A stretch of DNA of 32,558 nt from positions 1 through 32,558 of the forward strand of contig JAURLI010000038.1 in assembly GCA_030831315.1 (NCBI GenBank). Reading direction: 5' to 3'. The stretch comes from Alphaproteobacteria bacterium. GTDB lineage: Bacteria; Pseudomonadota; Alphaproteobacteria; SMXQ01. Position numbers and translations under genes: made by a program. Of the stretch, positions 22,604 to 25,346 are shown piece after piece; the first letter of the stretch is position 1; each line of letters begins with the position of its first letter. The notes beneath the pieces were generated by a model. It made no database searches, was not told the origin of the DNA, and was given only the letters and a program-made list of their open reading frames with translations.

Positions 22604-24767
<2,164 letters not shown>

Positions 24768-24805
24768 GGCGGCGCGCAACAAAAGAATCTGGCGTTGAAA
24801 TAAAA

Positions 24806-24852
24806 GAATCAGGAATCAGTGGTAATTGGGACTTCAAACTGATTCCCGATTC
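24806..24852. repeat. 15-bp imperfect inverted repeat in the GANTC cluster
   Basis: The left arm GAATCAGGAATCAGT (24806-24820) pairs with the right arm ACTGATTCCCGATTC (24838-24852) at 14 of 15 positions, across a 17-nt loop. Each arm contains two GANTC sites, so four methylation sites lie in one dyad. It could form an RNA hairpin after eno or a protein-binding dyad. Confidence 0.8.
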
Positions 24853-24853
24853 G

Positions 24854-24894
24854 AAGACTCCTAACTAGATTCCAGATTCTATTGAGTCTTTTTT
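24854..24894 (+). terminator. Probable intrinsic terminator after eno
   Basis: AAGACTC (24854-24860) pairs with GAGTCTT (24884-24890), followed by further T residues giving a six-T run at 24889-24894. The 23-nt loop can form an inner TAGA/TCTA pairing. It lies 87 bp after the eno stop. The stem is short and AT-rich, so efficiency is uncertain. Confidence 0.55.
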
Positions 24895-24895
24895 C

Positions 24896-24923
24896 TTGAC
24901 GCCAAGGAATCGCCTGTGATTCC
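24896..24923 (+). promoter_or_regulatory. Predicted ftsB-like gene promoter containing two GANTC sites
   Basis: TTGACG at 24896-24901 matches the -35 consensus at five of six bases. A GAATC lies inside the spacer (24907-24911), and the 16-bp-spaced -10 position reads GATTCC (24918-24923), a poor -10 that contains another GANTC. GGAATC and GATTCC form a 6-bp dyad. Initiation would fall about 3 bp before the ATG at 24933. In Caulobacter, GcrA activates sigma-70 promoters carrying methylated GANTC near the core elements; assigning this promoter to that class is inference. Confidence 0.5.
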
Positions 24924-24932
24924 CTCGCCGTC

Positions 24933-25346
24933 ATGACGCTATTGGGGCACATCAGGACACGCGCGCGGCTGATCATCGGACCGGTGATGGCGGCGACCCT
25001 GTTTGCCTATTTCACCTATCACGCCGTTCAAGGCGACCGCGGCCTCCTTGCCTGGATCAAGCTGGGCCAGCGGGTGGATGAGGCGCGTCTCGAACATGAC
25101 CGCATCTCCGGCCAGCGCGCAGCGCTGGAAAACAAGGTTCGGCTCCTGCAGCCGGGCAGCCTCGACGCCGATTTGCTGGAAGAGCGTACCCGGGCGATGC
25201 TGGGCTACGTTCATCCCGATGATGTCGTTCTCGGCGTTGACGGGCAGAGCCCGACGGGATTGAGCCCGATCAACACCGCGCCGGTTCCCGAAGCGACACC
25301 GAAGCGGCCCCTTCAGGCCGGTTTCGTGGTCCGTATCGGCTACTAG
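24933..25346 (+). CDS. ftsB: FtsB/DivIC-type septum formation initiator protein
   Basis: Small bitopic membrane protein of the FtsB/DivIC family (137 residues), expected to join FtsL and FtsQ in the cell-division complex. The sequence shows a short basic cytoplasmic N-terminus, one membrane helix (about 13-31) and a periplasmic coiled coil (about 40-72, LEHDRISGQRAALENKVRLL). The conserved DADLLEERTRAMLGYVHPDDVV follows in the region 77-99, then a Pro-rich tail. The eno-ftsB-pdhA order is usual for alphaproteobacteria. No purine-rich ribosome site precedes the ATG, and a promoter-like element ends about 10 bp upstream, so translation may be leaderless. It lies directly downstream of the GANTC cluster, pointing to cell-cycle control. 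Confidence 0.85.
   Translation: MTLLGHIRTRARLIIGPVMAATLFAYFTYHAVQGDRGLLAWIKLGQRVDEARLEHDRISGQRAALENKVRLLQPGSLDADLLEERTRAMLGYVHPDDVVLGVDGQSPTGLSPINTAPVPEATPKRPLQAGFVVRIGY

Follow-up and report, generated by a model that had tools for sequence, protein, structure and literature searches.

The window, the whole stretch of 32,558 nucleotides that was analysed, carries eno and ftsB on the same strand, with a dense group of GANTC sites, the target of the adenine methyltransferase CcrM, in the DNA between them. The features of the locus are as follows.

23478–24767, + strand: eno, an open reading frame and the upstream neighbour of ftsB on the same strand, with a homologue in 11/11 family genomes (relatives 73–88% identical).
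24778–24817, no strand: outer left array, with GANTC at 24785, 24806 and 24813; missing from the sister genome G010.
24841–24860, no strand: middle array, with GANTC at 24841, 24848 and 24856; partly common to G010, in which the first and third sites align.
24868–24888, no strand: proximal upstream array, GATTC-N2-GATTC-N4-GAGTC; the three sites are kept in genera g1 and g2.
24889–24895, + strand: T tract TTTTTTC adjoining the −35 element on its upstream side; conserved in the family and putatively UP-element-like in function.
24896–24901, + strand: −35 element TTGACG, identical throughout the family and also found class-wide.
24907–24911, no strand: spacer CcrM site GAATC between −35 and −10; present in 60/77 anchored promoters, with a variable middle base.
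24917–24925, + strand: predicted extended −10 element TGA-TTCCCT, assigned from its spacing and overlapped by GATTC at 24918–24922.
24933–25346, + strand: ftsB (septum formation initiator, DivIC/FtsB family), an open reading frame with a Pfam DivIC match at E = 5.7e-10.

The GANTC sites start at 24785, 24806, 24813, 24841, 24848, 24856, 24868, 24875, 24884, 24907 and 24918, and a recount of the window confirms the 11 sites that the original prediction placed in 24785–24922. Its expectation of 0.4–0.5 sites likewise agrees with the value of 0.49 calculated from the base composition of the segment itself (P = 6e-12). Across the whole window GANTC is depleted approximately three-fold, with 49 sites compared with 146 expected from dinucleotide shuffles, and the expectation for the cluster taken from the rest of the window is 0.16 per 138 bp (Poisson P = 4e-17), corresponding to a local excess of about 70-fold over the remainder. 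When the rest of the window was sampled in 138 bp stretches at 20 bp steps, none contained more than two sites, and the seven further palindromic pentamers of like composition occur three times in total within the segment, which is AT-rich (41% GC versus 66%).

The genome (2.70 Mb in 89 contigs) was scanned with the pattern GANTC-N2-20-GANTC-N2-20-GANTC, which occurs at 14 places, seven of them within the eno–ftsB cluster and the remainder with three or four sites each; one of the latter is the ccrM promoter. A similar density in many intergenic regions, the outcome that would have spoken for a generic feature, was thus not found, and generic GANTC-rich intergenic regions are ruled out by the small number of such places. 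A repeat family or mobile element is also ruled out, since a DNA search of the genome returned no second copy of the segment. Elsewhere in this genome, a GANTC-rich palindrome (GAATCGGGCCGGAATCCGCCCGATTC) at G000:C48:21136–21190 (locus L015, 1501–1551) lies directly 3′ of an apparent tRNA gene and is probably a terminator.

The 3′ end of the cluster has the layout TTGAC-N6-GAATC-N6-GATTC-N10-ATG, in which the −35 element TTGACG is separated by 18 bp from the extended −10 element TGA-TTCCCT, a hexamer without the usual A at position 2; a plain σ70 consensus scan did not call the ftsB promoter. Judged from the sequence, the GANTC cluster is the promoter of ftsB, and by its layout it is probably of the σ70 type. 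The spacing puts the predicted transcription start at or beside the ATG, so that the ftsB mRNA is probably leaderless; the distance from the end of the −10 GANTC to an in-frame start codon is 8–13 nucleotides in 60/77 of the promoters found in the class-wide survey described below.

The part of the cluster conserved in an alignment of the family is this same 3′ end, comprising GATTC-N2-GATTC, the T tract, TTGACG, the spacer, TGTGATTC and the ftsB ATG. The middle site of the proximal array (24875) is invariant in 11/11 family genomes, whereas the number of GANTC sites is 11 here and 7, 6, 8–9 or 3 in relatives. From this comparison the core is old and the extra sites have been gained and lost, and the rapid loss of the cluster in close relatives that would have undermined the original prediction did not occur. 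The two sites within the core promoter look like the functional heart of the cluster. The outer left array consists in part of inverted copies of right-array sequence, with 24790–24811 matching 24883–24904 (22 nt, 77% complementary) and 24780–24792 matching 24872–24884 (13 nt, 92%); together with its absence from the sister species, this suggests that the cluster grew by inverted duplication. A near-identical upstream array, GAGTCCAGATTCTATTGATTCTTTTTACTTGAC, was seen at locus L110 of a genome from another family (G118) in which GcrA was not found, and the proximal array may therefore be older than the family.

The ftsB locus was then compared across the class. An FtsB profile located ftsB in 168 of the 182 genomes sampled from Alphaproteobacteria with a completeness threshold of 90%, and the upstream DNA of 148 ftsB loci was examined, 107 from genomes with CcrM and 41 from genomes without it, CcrM presence being defined by matches of 1e-100 or better and GcrA presence by PF07750 matches. 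The core pattern TTGAC-N15-18-GANTC precedes ftsB in 70/107 genomes with CcrM compared with 7/41 without (Fisher P = 1e-7, with no tree correction for kinship); it is missing in the other 37 of the 107. The genomes without CcrM belong mostly to small, low-GC lineages, and among low-GC genomes the pattern is present in 10/21 with CcrM versus 0/26 without. Among high-GC genomes the numbers are 41/52 and 6/11, with no clear link to CcrM, although the CcrM calls here come partly from incomplete assemblies, and several of the high-GC genomes without detected CcrM are incomplete or have a genus mate that bears CcrM (G104, G195).

The pattern is specific both to its sequence and to its position. Built with seven control palindromes in place of GANTC, it occurs zero or one time each, and it was found 77 times in 27 kb upstream of ftsB compared with three times in 916 kb elsewhere in the surveyed loci. 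In genomes with CcrM, GANTC occurs upstream of ftsB at 2.93 per 230 bp against a background of 0.39, a 7.5-fold excess, whereas seven other palindromic pentamers range from 0.8- to 1.7-fold. A T precedes the −10 GANTC in 75/77 promoters and occupies the last hexamer position in 71/77. The 11 sites found here are the maximum among the 148 loci, and the eno–ftsB cluster is better described as the extreme case of a class-wide ftsB promoter than as the isolated oddity that it first appeared to be. Two further observations concern individual genomes. In one genus in which CcrM was found in neither member examined, G175 (locus L186) keeps the −10 GATTC and G076 (locus L180) has GATTTC, possibly a decayed form left after the loss of CcrM. 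Two genomes of another genus each contain two ftsB-like genes (G024:C1:532011 and 776824; G148:C214 and C176).

The middle base of the sites distinguishes between possible selective agents. CcrM is indifferent to the middle base of GANTC, whereas a sigma factor would not be. The spacer site has A in 39, C in 11, T in 6 and G in 4 promoters, and the upstream sites use the four bases evenly (41/36/32/29), which points to CcrM as the selective agent for these sites; the −10 site is GATTC in 76/77 promoters, its middle base being fixed as T, as would be expected if it is kept also for sigma. The free middle base is the strongest argument that the sequences offer for CcrM over a GATTC-reading factor at the spacer and upstream sites, and on the comparative evidence GANTC upstream of ftsB is under selection.

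The methyltransferase invoked by the original prediction is encoded in the genome. The ccrM gene at C31:20580–21617 matches NF050803 with E = 1.9e-185 and 615 bits (the curated cut-off of 830 is passed by no surveyed genome), and its product is full length, with a match of E = 4.7e-161 to CcrMI (PDB 6pbd) and a RAMA domain. The promoter of ccrM itself (L014, 1501–1542; G000:C31:20496–20537), in this genome without GcrA, has two GANTC sites after TTGACG and a third upstream, and a similar TTGAC-GANTC-GANTC-like layout precedes ccrM in 14/20 genomes, including that of the window. A wider regulon was sought with TTGAC-N0-9-GANTC-N4-8-GANTC and was rejected: the pattern recurs only at ftsB and ccrM, 25 of its 54 matches in 20 genomes lie at neither gene, and the one examined in this genome (L035) is apparently within coding sequence.

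GcrA, in contrast, which the original prediction also invoked, has no PF07750 match at E = 0.001 in 11/11 family genomes, that of the window included, with a positive Caulobacter control; across the class PF07750 matches 118/182 genomes, in many of them as short split matches. To our knowledge, GcrA is the only well-known protein that reads CcrM marks. On this result GcrA is unlikely to be what reads the marks here, although the Pfam model could miss a divergent homologue. Among genomes with CcrM, the ftsB core is present in 19/23 without GcrA versus 51/84 with it, and GANTC upstream of ftsB averages 4.2 per 230 bp without GcrA and 2.6 with it. The core is thus at least as frequent and the site counts are not lower where GcrA is undetected, which indicates that conservation of the promoter is independent of GcrA. 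The 23 of 107 genomes with CcrM and an ftsB locus in which GcrA was undetected include genomes reported as 99–100% complete, and from this survey the loss of GcrA with retention of CcrM seems to be common.

Several other explanations of the cluster were weighed. Control by GcrA and CcrM identical to that in Caulobacter, the GcrA of this family being too divergent for detection, would account for a GANTC between −35 and −10, which is the layout of CcrM/GcrA promoters; it is nevertheless distinctly improbable, given that PF07750 is unmatched throughout the family while matching most of the class, and that CcrM-containing genomes in which GcrA was not detected carry the promoter at least as often as those with it. 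It is quite unlikely, too, that GANTC simply belongs to a promoter element or factor site recognised by its sequence, such as a −10 element preferring TGATTC, to which methylation is irrelevant. The near-fixation of GATTC at the −10 site and the seven genomes that keep the pattern without detected CcrM would fit such a site, but it explains neither the spacer GANTC, present in 60/77 promoters with a free middle base, nor the upstream excess, nor the complete lack of the pattern in the 26 low-GC genomes without CcrM.

The array may also be imagined as an operator covered by MucR or another protein, so that during part of the cell cycle its sites escape methylation and act as an occupancy switch; a bound protein keeping the site unmethylated was also among the proposals of the original prediction. 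In Caulobacter and Sinorhizobium, MucR shields the GANTC sites of promoters, among them one with four such sites (PMC5172544), and the upstream array is repetitive, with paired sites 7 bp apart and inverted arms, as well as AT-rich. We consider this unlikely, since the middle base is free in the upstream and spacer sites, the spacing of adjacent sites is broad except for the core pair and so unlike a fixed operator, and the survey columns upstream of −35 contain no strongly conserved bases. An origin mainly as an eno terminator or RNA structure, with GANTC as a by-product of inverted repeats, was rejected as highly improbable. Inverted repeats are present and the region folds better than its dinucleotide shuffles (z = −4.45), but with the GANTC letters fixed z is only −1.9 (15/300); the excess largely disappears because the palindromic sites pair with one another in any case. 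Moreover, a terminator scan of the eno–ftsB segment called none, the segment has no Rfam match and its outer arms lack conservation in the family.

The promoter can be compared with known CcrM-controlled promoters. In Caulobacter, CcrM activates ftsZ and mipZ via GANTC, the ftsZ site lies between −35 and −10, and ftsZ activity is highest when the promoter is fully methylated and lowest when it is unmethylated (PMC3708114). The ftsB promoter resembles the C. crescentus ftsZ and mipZ promoters (Gonzalez and Collier 2013) in belonging to a division gene, in having GANTC in the core promoter and in the presence of CcrM in the genome. It differs in the gene, in having two core sites, one of them within the −10 region, with up to nine further sites, in its conservation class-wide and not just among close relatives, and in that GcrA is undetected here; Gonzalez and Collier reported strictly conserved GANTC sites at ftsZ, mipZ and ftsE, but not at ftsB, for Caulobacter and six close relatives (PMC3708114). 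Transcription start sites whose promoters carry GANTC between −35 and −10 constitute a separate cell-cycle class (PMC4287350). The ftsB promoter shares this arrangement, and probably the σ70-type layout, with the GcrA–CcrM regulon, but it tracks CcrM and not GcrA, which is undetected in the genome and the family. The ccrM promoter has a comparable TTGAC followed by paired GANTC sites, although with shorter and less regular spacing and, in this genome, three sites compared with 11. GANTC-rich repABC regions (PMC11514494) similarly pack GANTC into a promoter acting on replication or the cell cycle, but they are part of the replicon module on secondary chromosomes and plasmids, and the example described has three sites in each promoter. 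The hypomethylated promoters shielded by MucR (PMC5172544) also have several GANTC sites each, the likeness to ftsB being one of site count alone. CcrM control of division genes is already known; what appears to be new is an ftsB promoter found across the class that has CcrM sites in its core and is retained in genomes without GcrA, and in the open-licence literature searched, the coverage of which is incomplete, we found no paper that mentions both ftsB and GANTC.

We therefore favour, at a probability of roughly 0.7, a CcrM-methylated, replication-timed and probably leaderless ftsB promoter, with core sites and a variable upstream array, that is read without GcrA. The part of the original prediction that tied the cluster to expression of a septum gene stands, the cluster being the ftsB promoter with GANTC under selection and tracking CcrM, whereas GcrA is probably not involved here. 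We infer methylation of the sites in vivo and an effect on transcription, the timing and direction of which may be as follows. CcrM would methylate the promoter sites late in the cell cycle, and a passing replication fork would leave them hemimethylated; the methylation state would set the ease with which RNA polymerase opens the promoter, and the supply of FtsB would then track the completion of replication. By analogy with Caulobacter ftsZ, the preferred direction is that the methylated promoter would be active and hemimethylation would cause a dip. Since GcrA is missing, the mark would be read directly on RNA polymerase or by some other reader; in the direct route, N6-methyladenine in or beside the −10 element would alter melting and the contact with sigma. 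The extra upstream sites would supply more methylation targets, or more steps, to one switch.

The position of the gene is consistent with this timing. In 15/16 closed or nearly closed genomes, ftsB lies at 0.80–0.98 of the origin-to-terminus distance (with mnmG as the origin proxy), and ccrM lies closer to the origin, at a median of 0.34. Near the terminus, the ftsB promoter would be fully methylated for most of S phase and hemimethylated briefly until CcrM appears. Such a location suits a division protein that acts late, but it may reflect no more than conserved synteny, and we do not take it as evidence, since a weaker match to an mnmG-like paralogue is also near the terminus in several genomes.

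In conclusion, CcrM sites lie in the core promoter of ftsB in about two thirds of the sampled genomes with CcrM, whether or not GcrA is detected, which makes ftsB a candidate common target of this methyltransferase and its promoter a convenient place to test if adenine methylation can act on RNA polymerase without GcrA. A bolder reading, which we advance only tentatively, is that transcription of ftsB is an ancient, class-wide CcrM-controlled step in which N6-methyladenine in the −10 element acts on promoter opening with no protein reader. If this were true, methylation would link the completion of replication to the divisome, and GcrA would have joined promoters of this kind later or as an optional component.
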